From contig NZ_CP012559.1 in the NCBI RefSeq assembly GCF_000831645.3, positions 372,001 through 436,000 of the forward strand: 64,000 nucleotides of DNA, written 5' to 3'. Shown piece after piece: positions 1,807-54,055 of this stretch. Both the position numbers and the translations under genes were made by a program. Below the pieces are notes generated by a model, which ran no database searches, was not told the DNA's origin, and saw only the letters and a list, made by a program, of their open reading frames with translations. Every line of letters begins with the position of its first letter. The stretch's first letter is position 1. The stretch comes from Companilactobacillus heilongjiangensis (GTDB lineage: Bacteria; Bacillota; Bacilli; Lactobacillales; Lactobacillaceae).

Positions 1807-1980
1807 GCCGCCCCCGGTTGCCAGAAATGTAGATACCCGCTTGTGGGACCGGTGCGAGCCAAGGTCTCGCGCCTCGCTTTTGAGCCGAAGACCGCGTCTC
1901 AAAAGACGTCCGTGGTGTAATGGCTAAAGCCATAACGCCACTTTCACAGCGGTACTACATTTCTGGCAACCGGAGGCTAG
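1807..1980 (+). repeat. Cloverleaf intergenic repeat, copy 1 (F)
   Basis: First of 26 copies. The outer arms GGTTGCCAGAAATGTAG (1816-1832) and CTACATTTCTGGCAACC (1955-1971) pair perfectly; conserved ends are GCCGCCCCCGG and CCGGAGGCTAG. Internal hairpins: H1 GGTGCGAG/CTCGCGCC, H2 TTTTGAG..CTCAAAA, H3 GTGGTGTAATGGC/GCCATAACGCCAC. Forms an F/R pair with copy 2 on the far side of the IS30 element. Confidence 0.9.
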
Positions 1981-2178
1981 GGTTTTAAAAAAATTCAATT
2001 TTTTGTATTAATAATATTTAATTATTTAATAATGGACTATTTTGGCGAAACTTCATGAATAATTTTGTGCCAAGTGTTTGAGGGTAGATTCGTTGGTGTC
2101 GTTATTTGATGAAATTATTTATTTTAAGTAGTAATTTCAATTTTTAGGATGAAATTTTATTTTCGAAAATTACAAGAA

Positions 2179-3373
2179 CAAGTTAGCCACTTGTCCAAAA
2201 AATAAATACGAAATATATCAGTGCCAGAAAAGTGCATTTCTAAACTCCACAGAAACTAGTGAATAGTTCCCGTGGAGTTTTGTAGTTCAACAACTTTCTA
2301 GGCATATCATTGAGCTTTGATTCAATAGAGGATACTAAATCTGGAGCAATAGAATCGAGTGACAGCCCTTTGGGCAAGTCACGACGAATCATTCTATTAT
2401 GTGCTTCATTGGTTCCTCTTTCTGAGGAAGTATATGGATGTGCAAAATAAACATCTGAAACTCCAGACATAACAGAATCGAGATTAGCAAATTCAGGACC
2501 ATTATCTGCGGTTATCGAGTTGATAATGTGACCGTAATTATGTTTGATCTCTTCCATAGCGTAATCAACAGAGTCGGCATCTCTACCGTCAATAAGTCGC
2601 ATTATCTCGAATCTGGATTTACGCTCAATAAGTGTTAAGACTACGCTCTCGTGACCATTTCTCTTACCAACGATAGTATCAATTTCAAAGTCACCAAAAT
2701 CTTCTCGCAAGTCAACGCTCTCAGGACGTTCCTCGATACTTCTACCCAATAGACGCTTATGTTTCTTCGAAACGTGTAGCTTGGTAGATCTATTCATTTT
2801 GTCGGTTAAGTCTATATTACGTATCTCTAAACGTTGTTCATCGATGTACTTATAAAGAGTGGTAGTTGATACCATTTCATCTTTAAAGAATAACCCATCG
2901 ACACGTGATCTACCTGCGATTATATCTGGAGACCACCCCTGTTTGAACTGTTCTACAAAGTAGCTTAGGAATTGTTTAACTCGATTAAACTTAGAAGGTC
3001 GATGACACTGCTTACGCAGCGTGTCATAACGTAATTGAGCGGTATCAGGGTAATAATCATTAGAGAAATATTGTTTCCCATTAACCTTTTTAACCTGTCT
3101 TACGGTCCCTCTGCGGATCTCATTATTAATAGTTTGAGGGCAAACGCCAACGGCGTGAGCAATCTTACGATTTGAGAATCCCAAAAGGTGAAGCGAAGCT
3201 ATTTCACCACGTTCAATTTCAGTTAAATGGTGTCCCTTAGGTCGTATTATGGTATCATTTTCTTGCATCAAGACGAAAAACCTCTTTCATTGTTTGTGTA
3301 GGAACTCCAATGATACCTGATTTTTTCGTCTTGGTGTTTTTATTTTGAGCTTTTATTGAAAGTGGCTAACTTG
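2179..3373 (-). mobile_element. IS30-family insertion sequence
   Basis: About 1.2 kb bounded by a perfect 14-bp inverted repeat, CAAGTTAGCCACTT at 2179-2192 and its complement at 3360-3373, enclosing one intact DDE transposase on the minus strand. It lies in the spacer between repeat copies 1 and 2. I could not identify a target-site duplication with certainty. Confidence 0.85.
2240..3271 (-). CDS. IS30-family transposase
   Basis: DDE transposase of 343 aa, apparently full length and intact. The N-terminal helix-turn-helix region reads HLTEIERGEIASLHLLGFSNRKIA with PQTINNEIRRGT, typical of IS30. The catalytic core has Asp198 in FEIDTIVGKRNG, Asp256 in ITADNGPEF and Glu289 in SSERGTNEAHNR, a DD(~33)E spacing. 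Translation may begin at TTG 3271 (9 bases after AGAGG) or ATG 3268; the choice changes one residue. It catalyses cut-and-circularise transposition through the terminal repeats at 2179 and 3373. No sign of decay, so the insertion may be recent. Confidence 0.93.
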   Translation of the reverse strand: MMQENDTIIRPKGHHLTEIERGEIASLHLLGFSNRKIAHAVGVCPQTINNEIRRGTVRQVKKVNGKQYFSNDYYPDTAQLRYDTLRKQCHRPSKFNRVKQFLSYFVEQFKQGWSPDIIAGRSRVDGLFFKDEMVSTTTLYKYIDEQRLEIRNIDLTDKMNRSTKLHVSKKHKRLLGRSIEERPESVDLREDFGDFEIDTIVGKRNGHESVVLTLIERKSRFEIMRLIDGRDADSVDYAMEEIKHNYGHIINSITADNGPEFANLDSVMSGVSDVYFAHPYTSSERGTNEAHNRMIRRDLPKGLSLDSIAPDLVSSIESKLNDMPRKLLNYKTPRELFTSFCGV

Positions 3374-3442
3374 ATTATAAAATTCGCCGAAATTTTATTT
3401 TATCAATTTTGAAGGATTAATGTATTCAATTAAAAAAATTAA

Positions 3443-3625
3443 TTAGTCGGAAGGGCTGAGAATATTTACCCGCTGTGGGTGTGGCGTTATGGCTTTAGCC
3501 ATTACACCACCGGGCGTGTTTGGAGACTTACCGGTCTTTGGTAAGGCTTCAAACCGAGGTTCGAGACCGTTCTTTGGCTCGGACCGGTCCGCATAGCAGG
3601 TAAATGTTCTCAGCCCTGCAGACGG
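3443..3625 (-). repeat. Cloverleaf intergenic repeat, copy 2 (R)
   Basis: Reverse copy beginning TTAGTCGGA and ending GACGG. Arms GGGCTGAGAATATTTACC / GGTAAATGTTCTCAGCCC pair with wobble-compatible differences. H3 TGGCTTTAGCCA, H2 CTTACCGG..GGTAAG, H1 TCGAGACCG..GGCTCGGA. Lies about 125 bp upstream of purR. Confidence 0.9.
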
Positions 3626-3751
3626 ACAACCATAGAAACCAACTATCAGCTTTGGAGACGGCATATTTAACATTCCTTCGAAAAAAACATGAATTGTTCA
3701 TTGTTTTGCTTTATAATCTTGTAGGAAGATATGCTTTTAGGAGAAAAAAAG

Positions 3752-4594
3752 ATGAAAACACGAAGAAGCGAACGTTTAATTGATATGACTCGCTATTTAC
3801 TGGAACGACCACATACACTGATTTCTTTGGCATTTTTCGCTGATCGTTTCGAATCAGCTAAGTCATCGATATCTGAGGATTTAGGAATTTTACGCAGAAC
3901 TTTTATGATTAGGGGCATCGGAGTTCTGGAAACATTGCCTGGCGCTGGGGGCGGTGTTATTTTTACACCTGGAATTTCCAAGAAAGAAGCTACGGAATTT
4001 GTTGAAAGCACCTCGAAACGTTTGGTTGAACCTAACCGAATTTTGCCTGGTGGCTATTTGTATTTGACTGATCTTTTGGCTGATCCCGAACTATTGAGAA
4101 CTGTCGGACGTATGATTGCAACGCAATATTCACAAAGCTCAATTGATGTCGTTATGACAGTGGCTACTAAGGGTATACCAATTGCCCAAAGTGTAGCTAA
4201 TTTCTTGAACATTCCATTTGTGATTGTTCGTCGTGATTCAAAGATTACTGAGGGCTCAACAATTAGTGTTAACTATGCCTCAGGATCATCTGATCGAGTT
4301 GAAAAAATGGAACTTTCTAAACGAAGTCTTGATGAAGGATCACGTGTCTTGGTTGTCGATGACTTTATGAAAGGTGGCGGTACTATCAACGGATTGCAGA
4401 GTTTGATTTCTGAATTTAATGCTATTTTCGTTGGTGCTACAGTCTTTGCGGAGAACATTAACATCCATAGTCAATTTAGTGATGCCGAAATCACATCAAT
4501 ATTTAAGGTAACTAAAATCGATACACACAATAAAATTTTGAACGTTGAACCAGGAAATTATTTAGCTAATACCGATTTCAGTTATTTTGAATAA
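3752..4594 (+). CDS. purR: Purine operon repressor PurR
   Basis: DNA-binding regulator of purine synthesis genes of the Gram-positive PurR type: a winged-helix N-terminal domain (residues about 1-75) fused to a phosphoribosyltransferase-like domain that senses PRPP. The PRPP loop VLVVDDFMKGGGT is at residues 199-211. I take the ATG at 3752 (MKTRRSERL), with AGGAG nine bases upstream; the 280-aa length is standard. A TATAAT box at 3712-3717 lies upstream but I see no good -35. It precedes glmU and prs, as in Bacillus, linking purine and PRPP control. Confidence 0.94.
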   Translation: MKTRRSERLIDMTRYLLERPHTLISLAFFADRFESAKSSISEDLGILRRTFMIRGIGVLETLPGAGGGVIFTPGISKKEATEFVESTSKRLVEPNRILPGGYLYLTDLLADPELLRTVGRMIATQYSQSSIDVVMTVATKGIPIAQSVANFLNIPFVIVRRDSKITEGSTISVNYASGSSDRVEKMELSKRSLDEGSRVLVVDDFMKGGGTINGLQSLISEFNAIFVGATVFAENINIHSQFSDAEITSIFKVTKIDTHNKILNVEPGNYLANTDFSYFE

Positions 4595-4613
4595 ATTCTT
4601 GATTGAGCAGTCA

Positions 4614-4635
4614 TATATAATAATGCTATTATATA
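4614..4635 (+). promoter_or_regulatory. AT-rich inverted repeat upstream of glmU
   Basis: TATATAATA, ATGC, TATTATATA: a 9-bp inverted repeat that contains a TATAAT sequence, 34 bases before the glmU start. It may be the glmU promoter -10 region with an overlapping operator; no regulator is identified. Confidence 0.35.
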
Positions 4636-6071: not shown

Positions 6072-7055
6072 ATGTCATTTCAAAATAACGAACAACAACC
6101 AATGAAGATTTTTGCATTGAATTCAAACAAGCCTTTAGCTGAAAAAATTGCTAAAGAGGTTGGCGTACCACTAGGAAAGTCATCAGTTACACGTTTCAGT
6201 GATGGCGAAATCCAAATTAATATTGATGAAAGTATTCGTGGTTCAGAAGTATTCTTGATTCAATCAACTTCAGCTCCAGTTAACGATAACTTGATGGAAC
6301 TTTTGATCATGGTTGATGCTTTGAGACGTGCTTCAGCTTCAGTTATCAACGTTGTGATTCCATATTATGGTTATGCTAGACAAGACCGTAAGTCACGTTC
6401 ACGTGAACCTATTACTGCTAAATTAGTTGCTAATATGTTAGAACGCGCTGGTGTTGACCGTGTTCTTGCACTTGATCTCCATGCTGCACAAATCCAAGGA
6501 TTCTTTGATATTCCAGTTGATCACTTGATGGGTGCTCCATTATTAGCTGATTACTTCTTGTCAAACCACCTTGAAGAAGGCGCAGTTGTTGTTTCACCTG
6601 ATCATGGTGGTGTTACACGTGCCAGAAAACTTGCTGAATTCTTGAAGACACCAATTGCTATTATTGATAAACGTAGACCTCGTGCCAATGTTGCCGAAGT
6701 TATGAACATTATTGGTAATGTTAAAGGCAAACGTGCCATCATCATCGATGATATGATCGATACAGCCGGTACAATTTCATTAGCATCACAAGCACTTATC
6801 GATGCCGGTGCTACTGAAGTTTACGCATGTTGTACACACCCAATCCTTTCAGGCCCAGCTATCGAAAGAATTGAAGCATCACCAATCAAGACTTTAGTTG
6901 TTACAGATTCAATCAACCTTCCTAAAGAAAAAATTATCGACAAGATGGTTCAAGTTTCAGTTGGACCACTTATCGGTGAAGCTATCAAACGTGTCCACGA
7001 CAATGACCCAGTTAGTCCATTGTTCAATACACGTTTCGAAAGAAAGAGCAAATAA
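6072..7055 (+). CDS. prs: Ribose-phosphate pyrophosphokinase
   Basis: Makes PRPP from ribose 5-phosphate and ATP for purine, pyrimidine, NAD, histidine and tryptophan synthesis. Signatures: [16 protein letters not shown] near the N-terminus, [38 protein letters not shown], and the PRPP-binding [15 protein letters not shown]. The 327-aa length matches class I enzymes. An internal ATG at codon 11 ([11 protein letters not shown]) is an alternative start, but AAGGGTG precedes the upstream one. Coupled to glmU. A stable hairpin and then a terminator follow. Confidence 0.97.
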
Positions 7056-7071
7056 AACAGAGAGTGGAACA

Positions 7072-7172
7072 AGCCCGGGAATTTCCGAGCATTTGCATGA
7101 CTTCACGAATTATCCGCGTACTTTGCGGATGATTTGTGAAGTTAGGCAAAGCGGAAGAAATTGGCTTGAGTA
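7072..7172 (+). other. Long imperfect hairpin downstream of prs
   Basis: About 100 bases that fold on themselves: outer CAAGCC/GGCTTG and AATTTCCG/CGGAAGAAATT, then GCATTTGC/GCAAAGC, then the inner stem ACTTCACGAAT..ATCCGC (from 7100) with GCGGAT..ATTTGTGAAGT (to 7142). Not a member of the 26-copy family and has no T-run at its end. Confidence 0.6.
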
Positions 7173-7242
7173 ACTCGTTTTAGAGCCACTGCATATTTAA
7201 GGGTTCTAAAATAAAACTGCATATAATATATATATAAGTTCA

Positions 7243-7289
7243 AAAAAGAGTTAATAATCAAGCCAATTTGATTACTAACTCTTTTTATT
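7243..7289 (+). terminator. Terminator after glmU-prs
   Basis: Near-perfect stem AAAAAGAGTTAATAATCAA / TTTGATTACTAACTCTTTTT with a short loop and flanking A and T runs; could work in both directions. Confidence 0.75.
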
Positions 7290-8407: not shown

Positions 8408-8592
8408 TCCCGTCTCCAGTGATGAGAACATTTACCTGCTATGCGGACCGGTCCGAGCCAAAGTACGGTCTCGAACCTCGGTTTGAAGCCTTACCAAAGA
8501 CCGGTAAGTCTCCAAACTCTCCCGGTGGAGTAAGAGCTAAAGCTCTAACACCACTACCACAGCTGGTAAATATTCTCATCCCTTCCGACTAA
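8408..8592 (+). repeat. Cloverleaf intergenic repeat, copy 3 (F)
   Basis: Begins CCCGTCTCC seven bases after the dehydrogenase stop and ends TTCCGACTAATT. Arms GATGAGAACATTTACC / GGTAAATATTCTCATC pair with wobbles. H1 CCGAGCC/GGTCTCG, H2 CTTACC/GGTAAG, H3 AGAGCTAAAGCTCT. F/R pair with copy 4. Confidence 0.9.
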
Positions 8593-8762: not shown

Positions 8763-8943
8763 TAGCCGTAGGGTGCGATGAGTTTGCCAGCCATGAAAGT
8801 GTTGTTAGAACAGTGGTTTTCTGTTCTTACAACACTAACGTATTTTGAGATTTGCGTTTTGTGCAAAGCTCAGAATCGAGGTGCGAGACCTTGGCTCGCA
8901 CCGGTCCATGGCAGGCATAACTCAATCGCAACCGGAGGCGGCA
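8763..8943 (-). repeat. Cloverleaf intergenic repeat, copy 4 (R)
   Basis: Begins TAGCCGTA and ends GGAGGCGGCA, two bases from the mscL stop. Arms GCGATGAGTTTGCC / GGCATAACTCAATCGC. H3 is of the long type GTTGTTAGAACAG / CTGTTCTTACAAC; H2 GAGATTTGCG..GCAAAGCTC; H1 GTGCGAGACC..GGCTCGCAC. Confidence 0.9.
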
Positions 8944-8945: not shown

Positions 8946-9356
8946 CTAATACCTATTGTTATGGTCATTTCTTTGTTGATATCTTAATAAATCACGGATT
9001 TGTTGTAAGTATTCAGTTTGTGGGTCAGGTATTTCGTCACCATTTTGATCAAACTTACTACGTGAACCGTCACGGCGCATTTTGTTCATCATCTTAACGA
9101 TCATAAAGACTACAAACATAATGATTAGGAAATTGATTAATGCGTTAATGAAATCACCAATTAAAAAGTTGGCTCCTAAGACTTGAAATTTCATATCTGA
9201 TAGATCAATTTGTCCAATAAAAAGTCCGATTAGCGGATTCAAAAGGTAAGTAGTAGTCGCTGATACTAAACTATTAAAGGCAGCACCAACGATAACACCG
9301 ACAGCTAAGTCAACAACAGTACCACGGGAAATAAATTCTTGAAATTCCTTAAACAT
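8946..9356 (-). CDS. mscL: Large-conductance mechanosensitive channel
   Basis: Homopentameric membrane channel that opens on hypo-osmotic shock to release solutes. The protein starts MFKEFQEFISRGTVVDLAVG and continues VIVGAAFNSLVSA, the pore-lining TM1 helix with its Gly/Ala pattern; the second TM helix is the FINALINFLIIMFVVFMIVK stretch, followed by a charged C-terminal bundle. I set the start at ATG 9356 because GGAG precedes it; the frame stays open upstream only by chance through repeat copy 5, and that extension (RSLVRLQTEVRDR...) is not MscL. Length 136 aa is normal. The gene is bracketed by repeat copies 4 and 5. Confidence 0.95.
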   Translation of the reverse strand: MFKEFQEFISRGTVVDLAVGVIVGAAFNSLVSATTTYLLNPLIGLFIGQIDLSDMKFQVLGANFLIGDFINALINFLIIMFVVFMIVKMMNKMRRDGSRSKFDQNGDEIPDPQTEYLQQIRDLLRYQQRNDHNNRY

Positions 9357-9401
9357 TCTCGCTAAATCTCCTTCATTGATAGTATCTAAATAAAAGTTAT
9401 A

Positions 9402-9585
9402 CAGCTCCAGAGATGAGAACATTTGCCTGCTATGCGGACCGGCCCGAGCCAGAGTGCGGTCTCGAACCTCGGTTTGAAGCCTTACCAAAGACCGGTAAGT
9501 CTCCAAACACGCCCGGTGGTGTAACAGCTAAAGCTGTAACGCCACACCCACAGCGGGTAAATGTTCTCATCTCTTCCGCCTAATT
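9402..9585 (+). repeat. Cloverleaf intergenic repeat, copy 5 (F)
   Basis: Lies 46 bases upstream of the divergent mscL start, so it may fall within the mscL leader or promoter. Ends CAGCTCCAG and TTCCGCCTAATT; arms AGATGAGAACATTTGCC / GGGTAAATGTTCTCATCT. H1 CCGAGCC/GGTCTCG, H2 CTTACC/GGTAAG, H3 ACAGCTAAAGCTGT. Confidence 0.9.
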
Positions 9586-9876: not shown

Positions 9877-9983
9877 AATTAGTCGGAAGAGCTGGGAAAT
9901 ATTTGTGTGCTGAGACTTGAGACCGTACTTTGGCTCAAGTCGTTCCGCACAGCTTGAGAATATTTCCCATCTCTGTAGACGGG
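9877..9983 (-). repeat. Cloverleaf intergenic repeat, copy 6 (R, deletion form)
   Basis: Only about 107 bp. Retains the outer arms GAGCTGGGAAATATTTGTG / ..GAGAATATTTCCCATCTC and one hairpin, ACTTGAGACC..GGCTCAAGT (H1). H2 and H3 are cleanly missing, as if each hairpin were a removable module. Confidence 0.85.
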
Positions 9984-11688: not shown

Positions 11689-11801
11689 GATACCCTCCTG
11701 TATTTCACACATTTTGGCAAATTAAGCATAATCTCATCGGCCAGTAATTGCACAAATAAAATATCAAAATAGGCTAGTTATTATTCTAATAACCGAAAGT
11801 T

Positions 11802-11983
11802 GCCGTTTCCAGAGCTGAGAGTATTCATTCTGCTGCGCGGTACGGTTCGAGCCAAAGTGCGGTCTCGAACCTCGGTTGAAGCCTCGCAAACCCCGCGAGT
11901 CTCCAACACGTCCGGTGGTGTAAGAGCTAAAGCTCTAACGCCACTTTCGCAGCAGATGAATACTCTCAGCTCTTCCAACTAAT
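11802..11983 (+). repeat. Cloverleaf intergenic repeat, copy 7 (F, unpaired)
   Basis: Ends GCCGTTTCCAG and TTCCAACTAATT. Arms GAGCTGAGAGTATTCAT / ATGAATACTCTCAGCTC are perfectly complementary. H1 TCGAGCC/GGTCTCGA, H2 CCTCGC/GCGAG (other copies have CTTACC/GGTAAG), H3 AGAGCTAAAGCTCT. No R partner. Confidence 0.9.
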
Positions 11984-12135
11984 TTATTACGTTGATGATG
12001 AACAAATAAAGAATCGCAAATAATGAATTCAGGAACATTAAAAAAATACTTTTAGACTTGCTATAACAATGTTCATATCAGGTTCTCAACTTTCAATCTT
12101 TAGTTTAATAAAATTATGTAAAAGTTGAAAGCGTT

Positions 12136-14338: not shown

Positions 14339-14517
14339 GCCGCCTCCGGTCGTCAGGAATTTTCGCCTGCTATGAGGACCGACTTGAGCCAAGGTCTCAA
14401 GTCTCGCTTTGAAGCCTTGCCATAGTTCGGCAAGTCTCCAAAGTCGCCCTGTGGTGTAATGGCTAAAGCCATAACGCCACCTCCATAGCTGGTGAAATTC
14501 CTGGCGACCGGAGGCTA
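14339..14517 (+). repeat. Cloverleaf intergenic repeat, copy 8 (F)
   Basis: Ends GCCGCCTCCGG and CCGGAGGCTAG. Arms GGTCGTCAGGAATTTTCGCC / GGTGAAATTCCTGGCGACC. H1 GACTTGAG/CTCAAGTC (other copies GTGCGAG/CTCGCGC), H2 CTTGCC/GGCAAG, H3 TGGCTAAAGCCA. Sits upstream of the divergent lipL; pairs with copy 9. Confidence 0.9.
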
Positions 14518-14802: not shown

Positions 14803-14986
14803 AATTAGTCGGAGGGTTTGAGAATATTTACCGGCTGTGGGTGTGGCGTTACGGCTTTAGCCGTTACACCACCGGGCGAGTTTGGAGACTTGCGAACTTT
14901 GCAAGGCTTCAAACCGAGGTTCGAGACCGCACTTCGGCTCGGACCGTTCCGCATAGCAGGTAAATGTTCTCAAACCCGGAGACGGC
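14803..14986 (-). repeat. Cloverleaf intergenic repeat, copy 9 (R)
   Basis: Begins AATTAGTCGGA, ends GGAGACGGC. Arms GGGTTTGAGAATATTTACC / GGTAAATGTTCTCAAACCC. H3 CGGCTTTAGCCG, H2 CTTGCGAAC..GCAAGG, H1 TCGAGACCG..GGCTCGGA. Ends about 40 bases before the ywiB-like gene, so may lie in its leader. Confidence 0.9.
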
Positions 14987-19511: not shown

Positions 19512-21008
19512 ATGGGAACAATACAAATAGAAAACGTGAATTTTAAATATGATCAAATGATGGATAATCTATTCAGTTCATTGAATTTGAAGATTGATGA
19601 GAGCTGGAAGTTAGGTCTGATTGGACGTAACGGTCGCGGAAAGACCACTTTGATGAAGATGTTACTCGGGCAATTAGATTATTCTGGAACCATCGTGTCA
19701 AATCTCAATTTTTATTATTATCCACAGCTTGTGGCAAATAAAAATGTTCCAACTGTTGAAGTAGTGAAGAACCTAGCTCACTTGGAAGATTACGATCTTT
19801 GGAAAATTGAAATTGAATTGGAAAAATTACAAGTCAGTACCGATGTTTTACAACAGGAGTTTGCGACCCTTAGTCCGGGCGAAAGAACTAAAGTACTATT
19901 AGCCATTTTGTTTATTGATGAATCTGGATTTCAATTGATTGATGAGCCAACCAACCATTTGGATATTGAAGGACGTAAGATTGTTTCTGATTATCTAAAA
20001 ATTAAAAAAGGCTTTATCGTTATTAGCCACGACAAGTCATTCTTAAACCCAGTCATTGATCACGTGATTTCAATCAATCGTCAAGACGTTATGGTTTATA
20101 AGGGTAACTTTGATACTTGGCAAGATAATAAAGACCGTCAAGATCAATATGAAAAAGATCAAAAAGAGCAACTTCAAAAAGACATTGGTCGCCTACATGA
20201 AACAGCCGTTAAGCGGGAGAACTGGTCACAACAAGCTGAATCGCAAAAAAATAAGAAACACTATACCGAAAAAGTTAATTTGGATAAAGGTTTTCTGGGA
20301 CATAAGTCAGCTAAAATGATGAAAAAGGCAAAGACTGCAGCTAAGCGAGTTGATTCGGCTATTAGTGAAAAGCAAGGCTTGTTGAAGAATATTGAAATTG
20401 AAGAACCGATTACTTTAAATTATCAAGCAGTCAGTCATCCTAAGGTGCTGGTAGAAGTGAATGACTTATTCTTACAACATGATGAAATAGTTACACCGAC
20501 CGTTAATTTCAAAGTTGAGAATCATCAGGTTTTAGCCTTAATTGGTCAAAACGGTATTGGAAAAACGACGATTTTCAAGCAAATCTTAGGATTACCACAA
20601 CCATTCACACAACATGGATAAATTCATATTCCGAACAATTTAAAAATTTCTTACTTAGCGCAAGATAATGAATTACAAGGCAATATCCGTCAATTAGCAG
20701 AAGTCAAAAAGATCGAACCAGAATTGGTATTCTCTAATCTGAGAAAATTGGGATTTGAACGCTATCTATTTGAACAGCCAGTTGAAGAGATGAGTCAAGG
20801 ACAACGCAGAAAAGTTGCTCTAGCCTTGAGTTTGTCACAAGAAGCTAACTTATATTTTTGGGATGAACCGTTGAATTACCTGGACGTTATTACACGTCAA
20901 CAAATTATTGATGCCATAAAGAAACAACAACCTACGATGCTTTTGATTGATCATGATCAGGATTTAATTGATTCAGTTGCTACTAAAAAGGTAGTTCTGA
21001 AACATTAA
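19512..21008 (+). pseudogene. Lsa-like ABC-F protein interrupted by an in-frame stop
   Basis: Homologue of the intact gene just downstream. Codons 1-369 (19512-20618) hold the first ATPase domain (GRNGRGKTT Walker A, TLSPGERTK signature, DEPTNHLD Walker B), the linker and the second Walker A GQNGIGKTT. A TAA at 20619-20621 then stops translation. Reading on in the same frame, the sequence is continuous and normal to 21008 (KISYLAQDNEL, NLRKLGFERYLFEQPVEEMSQGQRRK, WDEPLNYLD). No shift is needed, so this is one nonsense change. ABC-F proteins of the Lsa/Vga group protect ribosomes from lincosamides, streptogramin A and pleuromutilins. Unless suppressed or a sequencing error, the product lacks a complete second ATPase site. 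Confidence 0.85.
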
Positions 21009-21026
21009 TTTGAAAAAGAGGGGAAT

Positions 21027-21146
21027 CCACAACTGAGAAAATAAGTTTGAATCTAAATTATACGAATATGTGTAGTTTAACTTGAACTTATTAGTTTAAG
21101 TGAGTATCGGAAGGTTAGGACTACACCCTGAACGAGGTGTTTTCAG
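21027..21146 (+). promoter_or_regulatory. Leader of the second ABC-F gene
   Basis: Similar to the first leader: a purine-rich AGAGGGG, then CTG AGA AAA TAA where the first has TTG AGA AAT TAA, and the shared AAATTATACGAATAT and GTGTAGTTT tracts. It lacks the terminator seen in the first. A CACC..GGTG hairpin brackets the ribosome binding site GAGGTG in both. Confidence 0.5.
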
Positions 21147-22699: not shown

Positions 22700-22885
22700 T
22701 AGTCGTAGGTTGAAAATTAGAAGTGTCAACAGTGATAGTGGTGTTAGTACGAGTGGTTCGTCTCGTGCTTACAGCACAGGACGTATTTTGAAATTCGCGT
22801 ACTTTGCGAAGTTCAAAATCGAGCCTTGAGACCTAGGCTCAAGGCGGTCCCACTGTGGACACTTCTAATTTCCAACCGGAGACGG
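22700..22885 (-). repeat. Cloverleaf intergenic repeat, copy 10 (R, unpaired)
   Basis: Begins TAGTCGTA, ends GGAGACGG. Arms GGTTGAAAATTAGAAGTGTC / GACACTTCTAATTTCCAACC. H3 TTAGTACGAG..CTCGTGCTTA, H2 TTTTGAAATTCGCG..GCGAAGTTCAAAA, H1 CCTTGAG ACCTAGG CTCAAGG (perfect). No F partner to its left. Confidence 0.9.
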
Positions 22886-22936
22886 AATTTATCACTAATT
22901 CCAGCGTTATACAAGGTGACATTTTCCAGAATTATA

Positions 22937-22965: not shown

Positions 22966-23030
22966 TAAACACTGTTAGTTAATATAATCTATATTTCCGT
23001 TAAGGATTTATGGCAAAGGAGCGACATAGA

Positions 23031-27690: not shown

Positions 27691-27877
27691 GGCCGCAGGC
27701 GGGTGCTGGGATGGCAGTCAGCTGTGGGACCGGCTCGAGCCGAAGTACGGTCTCGACCCTCGATTTTGAACTTCGCAAGGTTCGCGAATTTCAAAATACG
27801 TCCTGTGTTGTAAGGTCGGAAAATCGCCGGCCTAACATCACTACCACTGCGGACTTCATCCCAGCACCCGCCTGCTA
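27691..27877 (+). repeat. Cloverleaf intergenic repeat, copy 11 (F)
   Basis: Arms GCAGGCGGGTGCTGGGATG / CATCCCAGCACCCGCCTGC are perfectly complementary and GC-rich, unlike the AT-rich arms of other copies. H1 CTCGAGCC..GGTCTCGA, H2 TTTTGAACTTCGC..GCGAATTTCAAAA, H3 AAGGTCGG..CCGGCCT. Pairs with copy 12. Confidence 0.9.
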
Positions 27878-28083: not shown

Positions 28084-28266
28084 TTAGTCGGAAGAGATGA
28101 GTTTATTCACCAGCTGTGGTTGTGGCGTTATGGCTTCAGCCATTACACCACCGGGCGTGTTTGGAGACTTACCGAACTTTGGTAAGGCTTCAAACCGAGG
28201 TTCGAGACCGCACTGTGGCTCGGGCCGGTCCGCATAGCAGGTGAATAAACTCATCTCTGGAGACGG
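28084..28266 (-). repeat. Cloverleaf intergenic repeat, copy 12 (R)
   Basis: Begins TTAGTCGGA, ends GGAGACGGC. Arms GAGATGAGTTTATTCACC / GGTGAATAAACTCATCTC, perfectly paired. H3 TGGCTTCAGCCA, H2 CTTACC..GGTAAG, H1 TCGAGACCG..GGCTCGGG. Confidence 0.9.
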
Positions 28267-28332
28267 CAAACCAAAAAATGGGTATACTTTATGTATTAAC
28301 TTTTATGAATCTTATAAAATGGAGAAAAACAT

Positions 28333-29817: not shown

Positions 29818-30001
29818 GCCGTTTCCAGAGCTGAGAGTATTCATCTGCTGCGCGGCACGGTTCGAGCCAAAAGGCGGTCTCGAACCTCGGTTGAAGCCTT
29901 TCCAAAAACCGGAAAGTCTCCAACACGTCCGGTGGTGTAATTGCTAAAGCAATAACGCCACTTTCGCTGCGGATAAATACTCTCAGCTCTTCCAACTGAT
30001 T
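29818..30001 (+). repeat. Cloverleaf intergenic repeat, copy 13 (F, unpaired)
   Basis: Ends GCCGTTTCCAG and TTCCAACTGATT. Arms GAGCTGAGAGTATTCAT / ATAAATACTCTCAGCTC, close to copy 7. H2 CTTTCC/GGAAAG and H3 ATTGCTAAAGCAAT both carry compensating base pairs relative to copy 7. Confidence 0.9.
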
Positions 30002-30119: not shown

Positions 30120-30229
30120 ACGTCTCTGAAACGCTAAGGACTAGGATATTGTTTGAGAAGAAAACGGATACATGATATGCTATAACATATTACTTTGATA
30201 AAACATTCACAAAGCAAGGAGGACTTTTT

Positions 30230-31624: not shown

Positions 31625-31811
31625 GCCGTCTCCAGGGATGAAAATATTGCACCTGCTATGCGGAACGATTCGAGCCAAAGTGCGGTCTCGAATCTCGGTT
31701 TGAAGCCTTACCATAAATCGGTAAGTCTCCAAACTCGTCCGGTGGTGTAATGGCTAAAGCCATAACGCCACACCCATAGCGGGTGAATATTCTCATCCCT
31801 TCCGACTAATT
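31625..31811 (+). repeat. Cloverleaf intergenic repeat, copy 14 (F)
   Basis: Begins GCCGTCTCC at the base after the small ORF stop; ends TTCCGACTAATT. Arms GGGATGAAAATATTGCACC / GGTGAATATTCTCATCCC pair with several wobbles. H1 TTCGAGCC/GGTCTCGAA, H2 CTTACC/GGTAAG, H3 TGGCTAAAGCCA. Confidence 0.9.
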
Positions 31812-31895
31812 GAATGTATTTGTGATTGCATGTGTATTTATTAGTTCTGAGTTATTAAATCAAATTTACTCAAGATATGTAAGCTGATAAATTAT

Positions 31896-32000
31896 TTACG
31901 GTGATAGAGTTCAGCAGTGCAGGTGGTGTTAGGTCGTAAGACCAAGGCTCGCACCGGTCGCACAGCGAACTCTATCACCGTAACCCGGAGGCGGAAGTGG
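31896..32000 (-). repeat. Cloverleaf intergenic repeat, copy 15 (R, deletion form)
   Basis: About 105 bp. Perfect arms TTACGGTGATAGAGTTC (31896-31912) / GAACTCTATCACCGTAA (31967-31983) and end GGAGGCGG, but the interior keeps only GTGTTAGGTCGTAAGACC and half of H1; H2 is gone. Confidence 0.85.
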
Positions 32001-33937: not shown

Positions 33938-33982
33938 GTTGATTGTGAAAAAAGTGAAAAATTAGTGAAATTATGGTTGGGT

Positions 33983-34171
33983 GCCGCCTCCGGTTGAGAT
34001 GGATGGAACCTGCTGTGTGGACCGGCTCGAGCCAAAGTGCGGTCTCGACCCTCGATTTTGAACCTTGCACAGTTCGCAAGTTTCAAAATACGTCCTGTGC
34101 TGTAAGACCGGAAAATCGCCGGCCTAACACCACTTTCACTGCGGGTTCCATCCATCTCAACCGGAGGCTAA
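33983..34171 (+). repeat. Cloverleaf intergenic repeat, copy 16 (F, unpaired)
   Basis: Ends GCCGCCTCCGG and CCGGAGGCTAA. Arms GGTTGAGATGGATGGAACC / GGTTCCATCCATCTCAACC are perfect. H1 CTCGAGCC..GGTCTCGA, H2 TTTTGAACCTTGC..GCAAGTTTCAAAA, H3 AAGACCGG..CCGGCCT. The rest of 34172-34452 holds only a TATAAT at 34422-34427 that may serve pth. Confidence 0.9.
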
Positions 34172-34452: not shown

Positions 34453-35010
34453 ATGAAACTAATTGTTGGCCTAGGAAATCCAGGTAAAAAATACGATCGT
34501 ACAAAGCATAATATGGGCTTTATGACCATCGATAAATTGATGGATGAATACGGCCAAACACAAATGAAAAAAGACTTTGAGGCTGAATACTGTAAATTCA
34601 AAGTTGATGGCGAGACTGTTTTTCTTGTTAAACCTTTAACTTTTATGAACGAATCAGGACGTGCTGTTAATTTCTTGATGGGTTATTATCAGATTCAACC
34701 TGATGAATTGATGGTTATTCACGATGATTTAGACATGCCAATCGGTAAAGTTAGACTACGGACAAAGGGTTCTGCTGGTGGTCACAATGGTATTAAGAGT
34801 ATAATCTCTGCTGTAGGTACGAAAGACTTCAGCCGTATCAAAATTGGTATACAACATCCAGCTAAACAATCGGTTGTTAATTGGGTTTTGACACCATTTT
34901 CTAAAGATGAGGAACCTGTTGCTTTGGCCGGTATTGATCAAGCAGCTACAATGGTTAAAGATTGGGTCAGTGGCACATCTATTGATCAATTAATGAATAA
35001 GTATAATTAA
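34453..35010 (+). CDS. pth: Peptidyl-tRNA hydrolase
   Basis: Cleaves peptidyl-tRNA released from stalled ribosomes. Signature KLIVGLGNPGKKYDRTKHNMGF with catalytic His19, then FLVKPLTFMNESGRAV and IHDDLDMPIGKVRLRTKGSAGGHNGIKS. 185 aa, standard. ATG 34453 is ten bases after GAGG. pth-mfd linkage is conserved in Firmicutes, but here two repeat copies (17 and 18) separate the genes, so mfd likely has its own promoter. Confidence 0.97.
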   Translation: MKLIVGLGNPGKKYDRTKHNMGFMTIDKLMDEYGQTQMKKDFEAEYCKFKVDGETVFLVKPLTFMNESGRAVNFLMGYYQIQPDELMVIHDDLDMPIGKVRLRTKGSAGGHNGIKSIISAVGTKDFSRIKIGIQHPAKQSVVNWVLTPFSKDEEPVALAGIDQAATMVKDWVSGTSIDQLMNKYN

Positions 35011-35030
35011 TGAGTGGTGTAGGTTAAATA

Positions 35031-35230
35031 TTCCGTCGGAAGAGCTGGGAAATATTCTCAAGCTGTGCGGAACGGTCCGAGCCGAAGTGCGGTCTCGAAC
35101 CTCGGTTTTGAAGCCTTGACATAGTTCGTCAAGGCTCCAAACTCGTCCGGTGATATAAGTACGGGAGATTTCTCCCGTACTTATATCACTTCCACGGCAC
35201 ACAAATATTTCCCAGCTCTTCCGACTAGTT
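35031..35230 (+). repeat. Cloverleaf intergenic repeat, copy 17 (F, replaced H3)
   Basis: Outer arms GTCGGAAGAGCTGGGAAATA / ATTTCCCAGCTCTTCCGAC are fully palindromic to the tips, unlike other F copies. H2 CTTGAC/GTCAAG is a compensated variant. H3 has been replaced by a perfect 19-bp stem with a TT loop: GTGATATAAGTACGGGAGA (35150-35168) and its complement (35171-35189). Confidence 0.9.
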
Positions 35231-35428
35231 AATCGGTAGTGGTTGAATGTAAAAGGATTCAATTGTATTTATGTTCAAGTTATCTAGACGATGAAATATT
35301 TATAACGGATTATCAATAAACACAGATCATTAATTAAATACTAAAATTTGAAAGATGACGTTGACGTTACGATTCTAATATATCTATTTAGGCAATAGAC
35401 AGTCATCGTTTAATTATAAAAAAATAAA

Positions 35429-35599
35429 TAAGTTGGAAGAGCTGAGAGTATTCATATGCAGCGAAAGTGGCGTTAGAGCTTTAGCTCTTACACCACCGGG
35501 CTACCGGTCTGTGGTAAGGCTTCAACCGAAGTCCGAGACCGTACTTTGGCTCGGACCGTACCGCACAGCAGATGAATACTCTCAGCTCTGGAAACGGCA
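35429..35599 (-). repeat. Cloverleaf intergenic repeat, copy 18 (R)
   Basis: Arms GAGCTGAGAGTATTCAT / ATGAATACTCTCAGCTC as in copy 7. H3 AGAGCTTTAGCTCT; H2 shortened; H1 TCCGAGACC..GGCTCGGA. Ends 40 bases before the mfd start. Confidence 0.88.
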
Positions 35600-35638
35600 T
35601 ACTTAAATAATCTTTTTAAATACGCAAGGGGGCAAAAA

Positions 35639-40983: not shown

Positions 40984-41161
40984 GCCGCCTCCGGGCGTCA
41001 GTAATATAGTCCGCTATGGGGACCGGTGCGAGCCAAGGTCTCGCGCCTCGCTTTGAATCCTTGCAAGTTCAGCAAGTATCCAAAGTCGCCCCGTGGTGTA
41101 ATGGCTAAAGCCATAACGCCACCTCCATAGCAGGACTATATTACTGACGCCCGGAGGCTAG
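40984..41161 (+). repeat. Cloverleaf intergenic repeat, copy 19 (F)
   Basis: Ends GCCGCCTCCGG and CCGGAGGCTAG. Arms GGGCGTCAGTAATATAGTCC / GGACTATATTACTGACGCCC are perfectly complementary. H1 GGTGCGAG..CTCGCGCC, H2 CTTGCAAGTTCAGCAAG, H3 TGGCTAAAGCCA. Pairs with copy 20. Confidence 0.92.
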
Positions 41162-41307: not shown

Positions 41308-41488
41308 TAGCTGAAGGTAGCGAGGGGAAAATCTATCAGCAGTGCAGGTGGCGTTAGGTCGTAAGACCTTACCCCACCGACGTATTTTGAGATTTGCGGT
41401 CTATGCGAAGCTCAAAATCGAGACTTGAGACCTCGGCTCAAGTCGGTCGCACAGCAGATAGATTTTCCCCTCGCAACCGGAAGCGGCA
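41308..41488 (-). repeat. Cloverleaf intergenic repeat, copy 20 (R)
   Basis: Begins TAGCTGAA, ends GAAGCGGCA. Arms GCGAGGGGAAAATCTATC / GATAGATTTTCCCCTCGC, perfect. H3 AGGTCGTAAGACCT, H2 TTTTGAGATTTGCG..CGAAGCTCAAAA, H1 GACTTGAG..CTCAAGTC. Confidence 0.92.
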
Positions 41489-47614: not shown

Positions 47615-47791
47615 GCCGCCGAAGGTGGTCAGTAATGTTAGTCTGCTATGAGGACCGGCTCGAGCCGAAGAGCGGTCTCGACCCTCGCTTTTGAGCCGAA
47701 AATCACGTCTCAAAAGACGTCCTGTGGTGTAATGGCTAAAGCCATAACGCCACCTTCACAGCAGACTACATTACTGACCACCTTCGGCTAG
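47615..47791 (+). repeat. Cloverleaf intergenic repeat, copy 21 (F)
   Basis: Outer stem GCCGAAGGTGGTCAGTAATG / ATTACTGACCACCTTCGGC, then AGTCTGC/GCAGACT. H1 CTCGAGCC..GGTCTCGA, H2 TTTTGAG..CTCAAAA (as copy 1), H3 TGGCTAAAGCCA. The tip CCGAAGG/CCTTCGG replaces the usual CCTCCGG/CCGGAGG. Confidence 0.92.
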
Positions 47792-47999: not shown

Positions 48000-48176
48000 T
48001 AGCCGGAGGGAGCAAGGAAAATCCATCAGCAGTGCAGGTGGCGTTAGGTCGTAAGACCTTACCCCACCGACGTATTTTGAAATTCGCGTACTTTGCGAAG
48101 TTCAAAATCGAGGCGCGAGACCTTGGCTCGCACCGGTCGCACAGCAGATGGAATTTTTCTTGCTCCAGGAGGCGGC
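48000..48176 (-). repeat. Cloverleaf intergenic repeat, copy 22 (R)
   Basis: Begins TAGCCGGA, ends GGAGGCGGCA. Arms GGAGCAAGGAAAATCCATC / GATGGAATTTTTCTTGCTCC with one irregular position. H3 AGGTCGTAAGACCT, H2 TTTTGAAATTCGCG..GCGAAGTTCAAAA, H1 GGCGCGAG..CTCGCACC. Confidence 0.9.
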
Positions 48177-50883: not shown

Positions 50884-50959
50884 GCCGCCGGAGGGTGTGT
50901 GAGATGCAATTAATGCTGTGGGATTGGTTCGAGCCAAAGTGCGGTCTCGAACCTCGATT
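50884..50959 (+). repeat. Cloverleaf intergenic repeat, copy 23 (F), left part
   Basis: Left half of a copy split by an IS110-type element: GCCGCCGGAGG end, arm GTGTGTGAGATGCAATTAATGC, and all of H1 (TCGAGCC..GGTCTCGA). Breaks off after ACCTCGATT, at the base of H2. Continues at 52522. Confidence 0.9.
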
Positions 50960-51069
50960 CCTACGATTAGTCAAGTGAGAATCAGGAAAATGAGAGTATT
51001 CTAAACAGTACTTCATAACTTATGACTTTAAAATTATGAAGGTAAGAGTTAGTATTTGGAATAGAGATA

Positions 51070-52287
51070 CTAGAGTGTCTCTATGGACCTTGAGTCCGTA
51101 TATGCATAAGCATATTTAGTCTTGTTTCTAATCATGGAGAACAGACATTTCAGTGTCTTGTTCATGCAAGCCACTGTGGCAACCTTGTCCCTTTTAGGGA
51201 CGGGTTGCCTTTTTAGTTTGTAGTAATAGTCCACGATGTGATTAGGTGCAGCTGCTTGTTGCTTTATCATATTTCTGACAGTGAGGAATAGAATCTCTCT
51301 TGCTTTGGGATTTCCACGTTTATTTATGTGATCTTTTCTGAGATACTGACCAGATTGGTACCTAATAAGGTCAATCCCAACGTAAGCATTCAATTGATTA
51401 GAAGTATCAAATCTGGCGAAATCTCCGATTTCACCCAGTAACATGGCAGCTGTTAATTCACCAATGCCTGGCATTGAAGCAATAATTTCAAATTCGGGTA
51501 ATGTTTTTCCGAGTTGAATCATTTGTTTTCTAAGTTTTCTTTTTTCAATAGTGAGGTCTTTTAATTTACGTGCATAATATTTAACTTCTTGCACTTGAAC
51601 ATTATCTACACGTACTGCTGGAGAGCTATTCTTAGCAAAGACTATTAACTTTTCAGCATACTCCAGTGCTTTATCACTGGAGATTTTTTTATCGGTCTTA
51701 CTCATCAAAATATTCTTTAATTTTGTCCTAGAAATACCAGACACTAAATCAGGATGCGGAAAAAGACTAACCAAATTTAAAGATAGAATAGATGTCTTAT
51801 TAGTAAACAGTTGTTCCATTTCTGGAAACGTCTGTTGTAACTCGTTATGTAATTCAACTTTATTGAATTTACGAGAGTCTTCGACTCTCTCGTAAAATCT
51901 ACACCATTCTCTAAGATCTAGATATTTAGGATTTTGAAATGCCATCAACCGATAACTATTATCATAGGCGCTAAGAGCTATCTTATGCGCATCTTTATTA
52001 TCGGTTTTAACACGACGCAAATTCTCTGTCTTGAGGTGTAATTCAAGAGGATTTAACAAAGCATAGGGTATCTTATTATCCCTGCAAAATCTTTCTATGG
52101 GGCGAGAGTATATACCCGTAGCCTCAAAATAAAAAGTTGGATTATTAGCACGTTTAACGGTTTCGCTTAGTTTGGCGAAACCTAGTTTATTATGTTCAAA
52201 ATCAAATTCTTTCACGCAGTTACCATCGCTGTAATGCACACAATAACTGTGTCCTTTGGACACATCTAAAGCAATTATATCTGACAT
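51070..52287 (-). CDS. IS110-family transposase
   Basis: DEDD/RuvC-like recombinase of 405 aa. N-terminal catalytic residues are Asp8 (IIALDVSKG), Glu55 (FYFEATGIY), Asp96 and Asp99 (KTDNKDAHK). The C-terminal Tnp domain has IIASMPGIGELTAAMLLGEIGD and the catalytic Ser312 in RYQSGQYLRK, followed by KRGNPKAREIL. All active residues are present and the frame is open, so it is probably functional. Start ATG 52287 (MSDIIALD) after GGAAA; the longer frame to 52332 would read into the putative bridge RNA. These enzymes insert using a bispecific guide RNA made from the element. Confidence 0.92.
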   Translation of the reverse strand: MSDIIALDVSKGHSYCVHYSDGNCVKEFDFEHNKLGFAKLSETVKRANNPTFYFEATGIYSRPIERFCRDNKIPYALLNPLELHLKTENLRRVKTDNKDAHKIALSAYDNSYRLMAFQNPKYLDLREWCRFYERVEDSRKFNKVELHNELQQTFPEMEQLFTNKTSILSLNLVSLFPHPDLVSGISRTKLKNILMSKTDKKISSDKALEYAEKLIVFAKNSSPAVRVDNVQVQEVKYYARKLKDLTIEKRKLRKQMIQLGKTLPEFEIIASMPGIGELTAAMLLGEIGDFARFDTSNQLNAYVGIDLIRYQSGQYLRKDHINKRGNPKAREILFLTVRNMIKQQAAAPNHIVDYYYKLKRQPVPKRDKVATVACMNKTLKCLFSMIRNKTKYAYAYTDSRSIETL

Positions 52288-52502
52288 ATTTTTCCTTTCT
52301 AAAGCTATCCGTATCAACATTTCGAATCTCATTTCCTAAACACGAACTCGAAGTCCCACAACCTAAAACCTGATTAAAGAAATGAAGATAACGGAGATCA
52401 TTTTTTAATACGGACTCGAAGTCCCGAGGTTCATGCACGATCTTAGCTTTGTCTCCAGTGTACAAAAAAAGTTCTAAGAGAAGAAATTGATCTTCCCTCA
52501 GA
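52288..52502 (-). ncRNA. Candidate bridge RNA region of the IS110-type element
   Basis: Non-coding segment upstream of the transposase. It carries two copies of a GGGACTTCGAGT hairpin (on +, ACTCGAAGTCCC at 52346-52357 and 52414-52425), the second closing perfectly (GGACT/AGTCC) and the first with a wobble, consistent with two similar guide-bearing stem-loops. Boundaries and folding are inferred, not shown. Confidence 0.45.
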
Positions 52503-52521
52503 ACTAATCTTAGGTTGTTTT

Positions 52522-52642
52522 TTGAGCTTTGCAAAAACCGCAAATCTCAAAATACGTCCGTGCTGTAAGAATGGAAAATCGCCATTCTAACACCACAATC
52601 ACAGCATTATTGCATCTCGCACACCCCCTGGCTATTTTTGTT
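52522..52642 (+). repeat. Cloverleaf intergenic repeat, copy 23 (F), right part
   Basis: Resumes with TTGAGCTTTGC of H2, then H2 3' side GCAAATCTCAAAA, H3 AAGAATGG..CCATTCT, and arm GCATTATTGCATCTCGCACAC, which pairs with the left arm at 50893-50917. Ends CCCCCTGGCTA. Confidence 0.9.
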
Positions 52643-52737
52643 GGTCTCCTCTTAAGATTTTTTTATTTGGAATTTCTTTTAGGATTTCTAATATCAAATA
52701 GCGATTATTTCAAACTAATATAAAGGTCAGTTAAAAG

Positions 52738-52922
52738 AGCTGGAGGTTGATAGGAGAATACACTAGCAGTGAAGGTGGTGTTAGGACGGCGGTTTTATGC
52801 CGTTCTTACAGCACGGACGACTTTGGAGACTTGCTGGTTTTGCAAGGCTTCAAAGCGAGGCGCGAGACCTTGGCTCGCGCCGGTCCTCACAGCCAGTGTA
52901 TTCTCCTATCAACCGGAAGTGA
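52738..52922 (-). repeat. Cloverleaf intergenic repeat, copy 24 (R)
   Basis: Arms GGTTGATAGGAGAATACACT / AGTGTATTCTCCTATCAACC, perfect over 20 bp. H3 AGGACGGC..GCCGTTCT, H2 CTTGCTGGTTTTGCAAG, H1 GGCGCGAG..CTCGCGCC. Ends 20 bases before the tRNA promoter. Confidence 0.92.
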
Positions 52923-52941
52923 AAATTAATAAAAAATGTTG

Positions 52942-53073: not shown

Positions 53074-53111
53074 TTAAGCAAAATGCTTAGTGGAAATATC
53101 TTAAGTTTTTT

Positions 53112-53194: not shown

Positions 53195-53257
53195 TTAATA
53201 ATTAGTCTTGCAAAATGATTGATTATTATGTATTATGTTAATTGTTGTTGACATAAT

Positions 53258-53330
53258 GCCGACTTAGCTCAGTTGGCAGAGCACCTGTCTTGTAAACAGG
53301 GGGTCGGAGGTTCGAATCCTCTAGTCGGCA
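53258..53330 (+). tRNA. tRNA-Thr(UGU)
   Basis: Acceptor GCCGACT/AGTCGGC, anticodon loop CTTGTAA (TGT), T arm GGAGGTTCGAATCCTCT. CCA not encoded. Confidence 0.97.
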
Positions 53331-53340
53331 TCGTCATAAT

Positions 53341-53412
53341 GCGGAAGTAGTTCAGTGGTAGAACATCACCTTGCCATGGTGGGGGTCGCGGGTTCGAATC
53401 CCGTCTTCCGCT
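53341..53412 (+). tRNA. tRNA-Gly(GCC)
   Basis: Acceptor GCGGAAG/CTTCCGC, D arm GTTCAGTGGTAGAAC, anticodon loop TTGCCAT (GCC), T arm GCGGGTTCGAATCCCGT. CCA not encoded. Confidence 0.97.
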
Positions 53413-53429
53413 TCAGAGAATTTGATAAA

Positions 53430-53474
53430 TAAAAAAGTGATTAATTCTAAAATTAGGATTAATTACTTTTTTTT
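53430..53474 (+). terminator. tRNA cluster terminator
   Basis: AAAAAAGTGATTAAT / ATTAATTACTTTTTTTT with one G-T wobble. Confidence 0.8.
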
Positions 53475-53577
53475 CGTTCTCTAAAAATAAATCTAGCATA
53501 TATGTCTATCTTAATTGAGTATATTAATTCCTTGAATGTGGTACGATTCTTAAAGAAGGCAATTATTTCTTTGGTCT

Positions 53578-53767
53578 GCCGCCTTCGGTTGTGAGATATA
53601 GAGTTATGCTGTGGGACCGGCTCGAGCCAGAGTGCGGTCTCGACCCTCGCTTTTGAACTTTGCACAGTTCGCAAATTTCAAAAGACGTCCTGTGCTGTAA
53701 GAACGGAAAATCGCCGTCCTAACACCACTATCACTGCATAACTCTATATCCCACAACCTCCGGCTAG
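53578..53767 (+). repeat. Cloverleaf intergenic repeat, copy 25 (F)
   Basis: Ends GCCGCCTTCGG and CCTCCGGCTAG. Arms GTTGTGAGATATAGAGTTAT / ATAACTCTATATCCCACAAC, nearly perfect. H1 CTCGAGCC..GGTCTCGA, H2 TTTTGAACTTTGC..GCAAATTTCAAAA, H3 AAGAACGG..CCGTCCT. Confidence 0.92.
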
Positions 53768-53873
53768 TTTGTTTTCTTCTATATATGTATTTAATATTAT
53801 ATGTATTTAATATTTAAATTTTTACGTATTTTAAATATTGAATAGGAACCAATCATCAGATTGAAACAAAACC

Positions 53874-54055
53874 TTAGTCGGAGGGTGTCAGTAAATATAG
53901 ACAGCTGTGGGAGTGGTGTTAGGACTTTAGTCCTTACTCCACTGACGTATTTTGAGATTTGCGGTTTGTGCAAAGTTCAAAATCGAGGTTCGAGACCGAA
54001 CTTTGGCTCGCACCGGTCACATAGCAGGCTATATTTACTGACGCCCGGAGACGGC
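53874..54055 (-). repeat. Cloverleaf intergenic repeat, copy 26 (R)
   Basis: Begins TTAGTCGGA, ends GGAGACGGCA. Arms GGGTGTCAGTAAATATAG / CTATATTTACTGACGCCC. H3 AGGACTTTAGTCCT, H2 TTTTGAGATTTGCG..CAAAGTTCAAAA, H1 TCGAGACC..GGCTCGCA. Last copy in the window. Confidence 0.92.

Follow-up and report, generated by a model that had tools for sequence, protein, structure and literature searches.

The 64-kb window of the Companilactobacillus heilongjiangensis genome analyzed here (the term refers to the whole stretch, which is part of a single 2,790,548-bp contig) carries 26 copies of a strongly folded, cloverleaf-shaped repeat. These cloverleaf repeats are probably non-autonomous transposable DNA elements that form a superfamily of units resembling miniature inverted-repeat transposable elements (MITEs), with an IS982-type transposase as the likely route of movement for one of their branches, subfamily I. 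This seemingly undescribed repeat has about 550 copies per genome, amounting to 3.5% of the bases, and one in four of the Lactobacillaceae genomes sampled contains relatives of it. It offers a case, testable in food bacteria, of how a complex fold is preserved in a passenger whose outer stem is changing, of the reason why copies lie tail-to-tail, and of the choice of a repeated structured target by an IS110-family element.

A covariance model was built from 22 window copies and run with cmsearch, which returned 23 full-length matches in the window at 124 to 200 bits (the 22 source copies match by construction) once one sub-fragment and the palindromes' shadows on the reverse strand had been set aside. 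Together with two shortened copies and one copy split by an IS110-family insertion sequence (IS), these make up the 26 copies counted in the preliminary description, which had also put the occupied length at roughly 4.5 kb; the copies cover 7.1% of the 64 kb, or about 4.6 kb. Full copies are 169 to 196 bp long, with tips such as GCCGYCTCC and GGAGGCTA (or TTCCGACTA). In the predicted folds, an outer stem of 20 to 30 bp is followed by three hairpins (H1, H2, and H3) arranged about a junction, so the plan first proposed from the letters alone, with H1 as GAGCC..GGTCTC, H2 as TTTG..CAAA, and H3 as GTGGTGTAA..TAACGCCAC, is visible in them. The exceptions are 9880-9983, which has only H1, the fused fragment 31893-31989, and 35430-35598, in which H2 is shortened. 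Mismatches such as a bulge in H1 recur across many copies.

The pairing might have been no better than in shuffled sequences; both the folding energy and the covariation lie far beyond them. Measured against 60 dinucleotide shuffles per copy, the folding z-scores of 23 of the 26 copies (22 full ones and 9880-9983) range from -5.0 to -16.0 with RNA parameters (median, -9.2) and from -5.3 to -12.8 with DNA parameters (median, -8.4). In the 22-copy alignment, 95.8% of the cells pair, a value that falls to 32 to 41% when the partners are slid by 1 to 3 columns. Double changes are present in 32 of the 54 pairs and occupy 200 cells, compared with 60.6 +/- 6.4 in shuffles, and none of 500 shuffles reaches that number. 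Among 74 further copies, the mean column identity between copies is 0.49 in the distal outer stem versus 0.90 in H1, and the distal outer stem is nevertheless 96% Watson-Crick; hypervariable as it is, the outer stem has stayed complementary. Sites common to C. heilongjiangensis and a relative can be compared directly. At four of them, changes on both sides left 27 pairs Watson-Crick and broke a single one, and 12 one-sided changes comprise 9 to a mismatch other than G-T and 3 between Watson-Crick and G-T. A fifth comparison, C. nantensis versus the Companilactobacillus genome G034, has offset boundaries and was left out of these sums (4 double changes kept, 8 one-sided changes broken, and 1 G-T). 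Around the copy starting at 33983, C. heilongjiangensis and C. huachuanensis share a left flank with 97% identity and have unrelated outer stems, each of them self-complementary, for which conversion from another copy is the simplest cause.

Of the two readings offered in the preliminary description, a non-autonomous mobile element or a structured RNA family, the former gains support from empty sites in relatives, from the inverted ends and duplications of the youngest subfamily, and from an IS982-family IS with the same ends. The comparison of orthologous gaps proposed there revealed empty sites in both directions. The stretch 35010-35616, which holds two units, is absent in C. huachuanensis, G034, C. 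nantensis, and C. suantsaicola, where the site is uninterrupted (the sequences inspected were those of C. huachuanensis, G034, and C. suantsaicola). The pair (35010-35615) immediately follows the stop codon of a peptidyl-tRNA hydrolase gene. Its first member is a subfamily-I unit on the plus strand (35010..35330) with a left end, a cloverleaf at 35032-35227, a tail, and a right end, and reading the sequences gives a 6-bp duplication, TAATTA, at 35004-35009 and 35331-35336. The second, a subfamily-II unit on the minus strand (35340..35615, cloverleaf at 35430-35598), lies tail-to-tail with the first and has its own 6-bp duplication, TTAAAT, likewise read from the sequences at 35334-35339 and 35616-35621. 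As the second unit sits in the right flank of the first and the duplications are separate, the pair arose by two insertions. Another subfamily II cloverleaf (11802..11981, plus strand) belongs to an inserted unit of about 11780-12098 that is absent in C. huachuanensis, the empty site being 11792/12099. C. suantsaicola is empty at 33966/34414, the location of the copy 33983..34170 (plus strand), whose site in C. huachuanensis is the one with the other outer stem. It is also empty at 40971/41526 and 14304/14992, so that the paired copies 40984..41160 (plus) and 41308..41487 (minus), as well as 14339..14517 (plus) and 14806..14986 (minus), are absent there. In the reverse case, C. suantsaicola has two copies where C. 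heilongjiangensis has a 26-bp gap, and in many other gaps the relatives hold copies of their own.

The youngest subfamily (I) has inverted ends, ACGCRTGGTGCTAGTTRA, on both sides of the unit. They fit the IS982 end consensus AC(N)6T(N)5TT as given in excerpts of PMC7335449, where direct repeats of 6 to 9 bp are among those listed for this family. The units are about 100 to 400 bp long, too short for a transposase gene. With two end mismatches allowed, 13 of 23 end pairs are flanked by a duplication (8 exact ones of 7 to 10 bp and 5 with one mismatch at 8 to 10 bp), compared with 2 of 506 in a control with mixed flanks; three end mismatches give 30 pairs, some of them plainly spurious, with 3 exact duplications at 9 bp and 5 at 8 bp. 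Ends and duplications of this kind suggest ordinary double-stranded DDE transposition. In C. nantensis, a 961-bp IS with near-identical ends codes for an IS982 transposase that a stop codon divides into two pieces, with E-values of 2e-20 and 2.4e-32, both under the curated cut-off. Five C. nantensis contigs begin or end at an IS982-type end sequence, as would be expected of a collapsed multi-copy IS. Judging by their ends and duplications, the youngest members are IS982-type MITEs.

Several observations weigh against this route as a general explanation. Subfamily I ends (at most one mismatch) were found in only 4 of the 36 genomes of the genus (C. heilongjiangensis, C. huachuanensis, C. nantensis, and G034), the other 32 having none, and 10 of the 23 end pairs have no duplication. 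The first half of the C. nantensis transposase, the second half not having been searched, had no match in C. heilongjiangensis, C. huachuanensis, G034, or C. suantsaicola. Most C. heilongjiangensis copies are without recognizable ends, and in two genomes of other genera, with three copies aligned in each, the common sequence is the cloverleaf only or the cloverleaf plus a tail. Last, a 101-bp subfamily-I unit at genome positions 67737-67837 lacks the cloverleaf while retaining both ends, the tail, and a perfect 9-bp duplication. It may be that the fold is not required, although a later deletion explains this unit equally well. Three 214-bp units share a common junction, but a short repeat lies there and the units differ elsewhere in ways that suggest independent deletions, so they were rejected as proof of a dispensable cloverleaf. 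A candidate autonomous transposon between inverted ends at 1490996-1493977 was rejected, as its left end belongs to its own 321-bp unit and the three open reading frames (ORFs) between the ends look by eye like ordinary genes. Subfamily II has other ends, about CTRAAGRTTGAAAG, and with different ends or none around the same core, the cloverleaf core looks older and more widespread than any set of ends. One core persists with different transposon ends and across genera.

The genome-wide figures are extrapolated from a systematic sample of twenty 20-kb stretches (400 kb) outside the window, in which we counted 79 copies (103 raw matches minus 24 reverse-strand shadows). The window, having been chosen for its copies, was used in the pair and context counts and not in this estimate. 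A search of the whole genome gave at least 150 matches, all 150 scored candidates being matches. Of the two comparisons that the preliminary description had suggested, with related genomes and with Rfam, the former gave matches and the latter none for the copies. Matches were found in 30 of 36 Companilactobacillus genomes (from 1 to at least 74 each), in 63 of 251 genomes of Lactobacillaceae, representing 12 of 40 genera, and in 29 of 395 genomes of Lactobacillales, 8 of the latter lying outside Lactobacillaceae with 28 to 52 bits. The outside-family matches that were fetched have a comparable folding plan; in several of them GAGCC..GTCTC of H1 or an H3 core like GTGTAACGGCTAAAGCCGT recurs. 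We read the matches across Lactobacillales families as one superfamily, with low scores outside the family. Spread by plasmids or phages was rejected, as a search with one copy as the query gave one partial plasmid match, in Limosilactobacillus reuteri, and none in phages.

The arrangement of neighboring copies is strongly biased. In the window and sample together, 33 of the 34 neighbors separated by at most 400 bp converge, tails facing each other, and the remaining one is tandem (P=3.5e-19 under random orientation), while the three divergent neighbors are all more than 450 bp apart. The C. suantsaicola loci contain four convergent pairs with gaps of 270 to 563 bp, and at 20 loci of other genera, picked among the best matches, 10 of 11 neighbors within 400 bp are convergent and 1 is tandem. 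The typical gap in a pair is about 180 bp, the length of two tails. Sequential insertion beside a resident right end would give convergent pairs; selection or movement as a pair are possible alternative sources. Two hybrid short copies on contig C6 of C. huachuanensis (76263-76372 and 79217-79326) look like fusions of a left half with a second, inverted left half, the product that a deletion joining tail-to-tail partners would give.

None of the 101 copies in the window and sample lies inside an ORF, by a crude ORF call that drops ORFs made largely of a copy. The 5' end is within 60 bp of an ORF in 38 copies, 28 of which follow a stop codon, and it is the end nearer to a gene in 82 of 95 cases (26 of 35 singles and 56 of 60 paired copies). 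This bias is largely due to the shape of the unit, with 22 bp before and about 100 bp after the cloverleaf, and to pairing; a gene-directed orientation was rejected as a separate signal because these two largely account for it.

In the two subfamilies with visible ends, a unit consists of a left end, a cloverleaf of 170 to 195 bp about 22 bp inward, a tail of about 90 to 125 bp, and a right end. Under the transposition reading, an IS982-type transposase would bind both ends in trans and carry the unit, in double-stranded form, into AT-rich gaps near the ends of genes, where 6 to 9 bp would be duplicated, and units inserting tail-to-tail beside each other would leave the convergent pairs. Older copies would have moved likewise. 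After insertion, the ends and the tail would decay beyond recognition, and the cloverleaf would be kept with its arms complementary. We propose that the core acts as a DNA-level structure. Template switching from arm to arm, together with conversion among copies, may renew its complementarity, and its conserved H1 and H3 hairpins may be read by a putative protein. A more far-reaching version, which we put forward tentatively and hold to be possible though doubtful, makes the cloverleaf an old Lactobacillales-wide DNA module with a putative recognition protein of its own that would read H1 and H3 of the folded or cruciform four-way junction. Such a module would have passed from one transposon backbone to another, unrelated one, with IS982-type ends in a single clade and different or no visible ends in the others, rewriting its outer stem and keeping it complementary.

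Other explanations would give the fold a different role. The folded strand, perhaps with a tail-to-tail pair as the unit, could itself be recognized by an HUH/Y1 or integron-like enzyme, comparable to REPIN/RAYT and attC, with one young branch alone having picked up IS982 ends. Such a single-stranded route, which the preliminary description had made part of its first reading, agrees with the shared sequence starting at the cloverleaf itself in the two genomes of other genera, with the dominance of convergent pairs in every lineage looked at, and with an outer stem that is variable but complementary and mismatches, like the H1 bulge, that recur. We consider it unlikely, as the ends and duplications of subfamily I are typical of a DDE transposase and the pair at 35010-35615 is made of two different units that arrived in two steps with separate duplications. 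It is quite unlikely that the cloverleaf is a purely passive passenger, in which young copies would look perfect by descent from a perfect source and ectopic gene conversion among the copies of the genome would alone account for concerted change. The 33983 site, with its kept flank and its unrelated but complementary outer stems, is what whole-element conversion gives, and the outer-stem mismatches are symmetric between G-T and A-C, as neutral decay gives. On the other hand, H1 and H3 persist in variant form from genus to genus and, weakly, in several Lactobacillales families while the outer stem changes, and a passive passenger would have no need to stay paired over such a range.

The second reading of the preliminary description, a structured RNA family, here taken as a leader, a small RNA, or a stabilizer of mRNA 3' ends spread by transposition, is disfavored, and we regard it as very unlikely. 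Strong covariation and folding energy would suit it, as would the frequent position of 5' ends shortly after stop codons. An RNA of the top strand should, however, favor G-T over A-C departures from pairing, and no such excess is seen. The ratio is 96:91 in the outer stem of 95 copies, in an alignment neutral between the two, and 44:98 over all stems of 74 copies, where A-C subfamily columns account for part of the difference. The latter sums exclude columns with few letters and pairs with less than half Watson-Crick cells, that is, a single H3 pair with T-G in 39 of the 74 copies; this pair speaks for an RNA, and including it gives 83:98. The 16 tRNAs of the same DNA gave 21:0, a soft control, as ARAGORN may not bracket mismatches. 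Residual single-copy mismatches may be neutral decay, which is symmetric under any model. Paired copies also face opposite ways over the same gap, so one of them would be read as the complement. Rfam 15 gave only tRNAs and an L31 leader above the gathering threshold in the window and nothing above it over the copies at 8409, 8763, and 9400, and known Rfam families were rejected for the copies.

A description of the cloverleaf repeat was not found among the titles matched in the open-access PubMed Central literature (among the matches listed), and with Rfam also empty, the claim that no described family has this plan held in both sources. This abundant family seems to be described nowhere in the open-access PubMed Central literature searched. 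Its units resemble MITEs mobilized by IS982-family elements (IS982 is described in PMC7335449) in their AC(N)6T(N)5TT ends, 6- to 9-bp duplications, and location in intergenic gaps, and an IS982-family IS with the same ends exists in the sister species C. nantensis. Unlike such MITEs, they have a 180-bp cloverleaf core common to units with other or no recognizable ends, form convergent pairs, and span many genera. BOX of Streptococcus pneumoniae is a close analogue: in the excerpts of PMC3049150 it is small, interspersed, and strongly folded, with ends paired together and many copies (125 in one genome), and inverted ends and duplications are reported for it, but it has a modular A-B-C plan and fewer copies. 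Membership in BOX was rejected, as the cloverleaf model, run with the filters off, gave a real BOX copy 1.3 bits, and this copy has no H1 or H3 motif. Other known repeats share single aspects. REP/BIME and REPINs are intergenic, number in the hundreds, frequently form inverted pairs, and are landing sites for IS110-type elements, and the cloverleaf repeats are like them in all four respects. REPs, though, are far shorter single hairpins, and we know of no inverted ends with duplications in REPs or REPINs. Like attC sites, the cloverleaf repeats have conserved ends, a variable yet complementary stem, and extrahelical bases; they differ from them in the four-way junction with three conserved hairpins and in subfamily I moving with duplications.

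The cloverleaf is itself a target for an IS. An IS110-family element occupies 50960-52519 of the window, with its transposase on the minus strand at 51070..52332 (NF033542, E=4.7e-53), and splits a plus-strand copy into a left half, 50884..50959 (match 50884-51028, 30.3 bits), and a right half with H2, H3, and the right arm, 52520..52634 (match 52448-52634, 52.8 bits). The split copy is paired with 52737..52923 on the minus strand. Further genome copies of the element lie at 100372, 662950, and 1124499, and all four are identical over 1,564 bp and inserted at the H2 base in the same orientation, in different cloverleafs. The insertions are a repeated-target preference for one point of the cloverleaf.

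Most of the remaining window copies are also paired, with the plus-strand partner on the left and the minus-strand partner on the right. The copy 8409..8591 starts 5 bp past a stop codon and is paired with 8763..8942, which is separated by 3 bp from the stop codon of the following gene. In two pairs one partner is shortened: 9400..9582 faces 9880..9983 (outer stem and H1 only, by a 50.0-bit match and its fold), and 31625..31808 faces the fused 31893..31989 (17.1 bits, E=0.011). Full-length partners, all found by cmsearch, are 27692..27877 with 28085..28267, 47615..47790 with 48000..48176, and 53578..53766 with 53875..54055. Further cmsearch matches are 22700..22886 on the minus strand and a subfamily II cloverleaf, 29818..29998, on the plus strand. 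At the left edge, 1807..1979 (plus strand, 135.5 bits, with a predicted fold) and 3444..3626 (minus strand, 192.5 bits) face each other across a transposase-like gene at 2240-3400 (HTH_38 and a weak rve domain), which we take to be IS30-like. This gene is absent there in C. huachuanensis, and its flank at 3269-3400 has many occurrences in C. suantsaicola.

Some neighboring genes also vary among the relatives. The gene at 8946-9387, a putative mscL, is inverted in C. nantensis and G034 relative to C. heilongjiangensis, C. huachuanensis, and C. suantsaicola, and in C. nantensis the inverted gene is flanked by cloverleaf copies. The repeat adjoins rearrangements in relatives, namely this inversion and the hybrid copies, and may disturb assembly and annotation in the genus. 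The alanine dehydrogenase gene at 30167-31348 is present in C. nantensis and, at least partly, in C. suantsaicola, and C. huachuanensis and G034 have a gap without it. At 7049-7261 there is another repeat, distinct from the cloverleaf, with many scattered matches at 81 to 93% in C. huachuanensis, C. nantensis, and G034. The region 19697-22595 contains a diverged tandem duplication involving two ORFs of 369 and 484 amino acids, with blocks of 296 to 300 bp that are 72 to 75% identical and 1.6 kb apart. Last, the L31-Firmicutes ribosomal protein leader lies at 22989-23021 (34.0 bits), near the copy starting at 22700.

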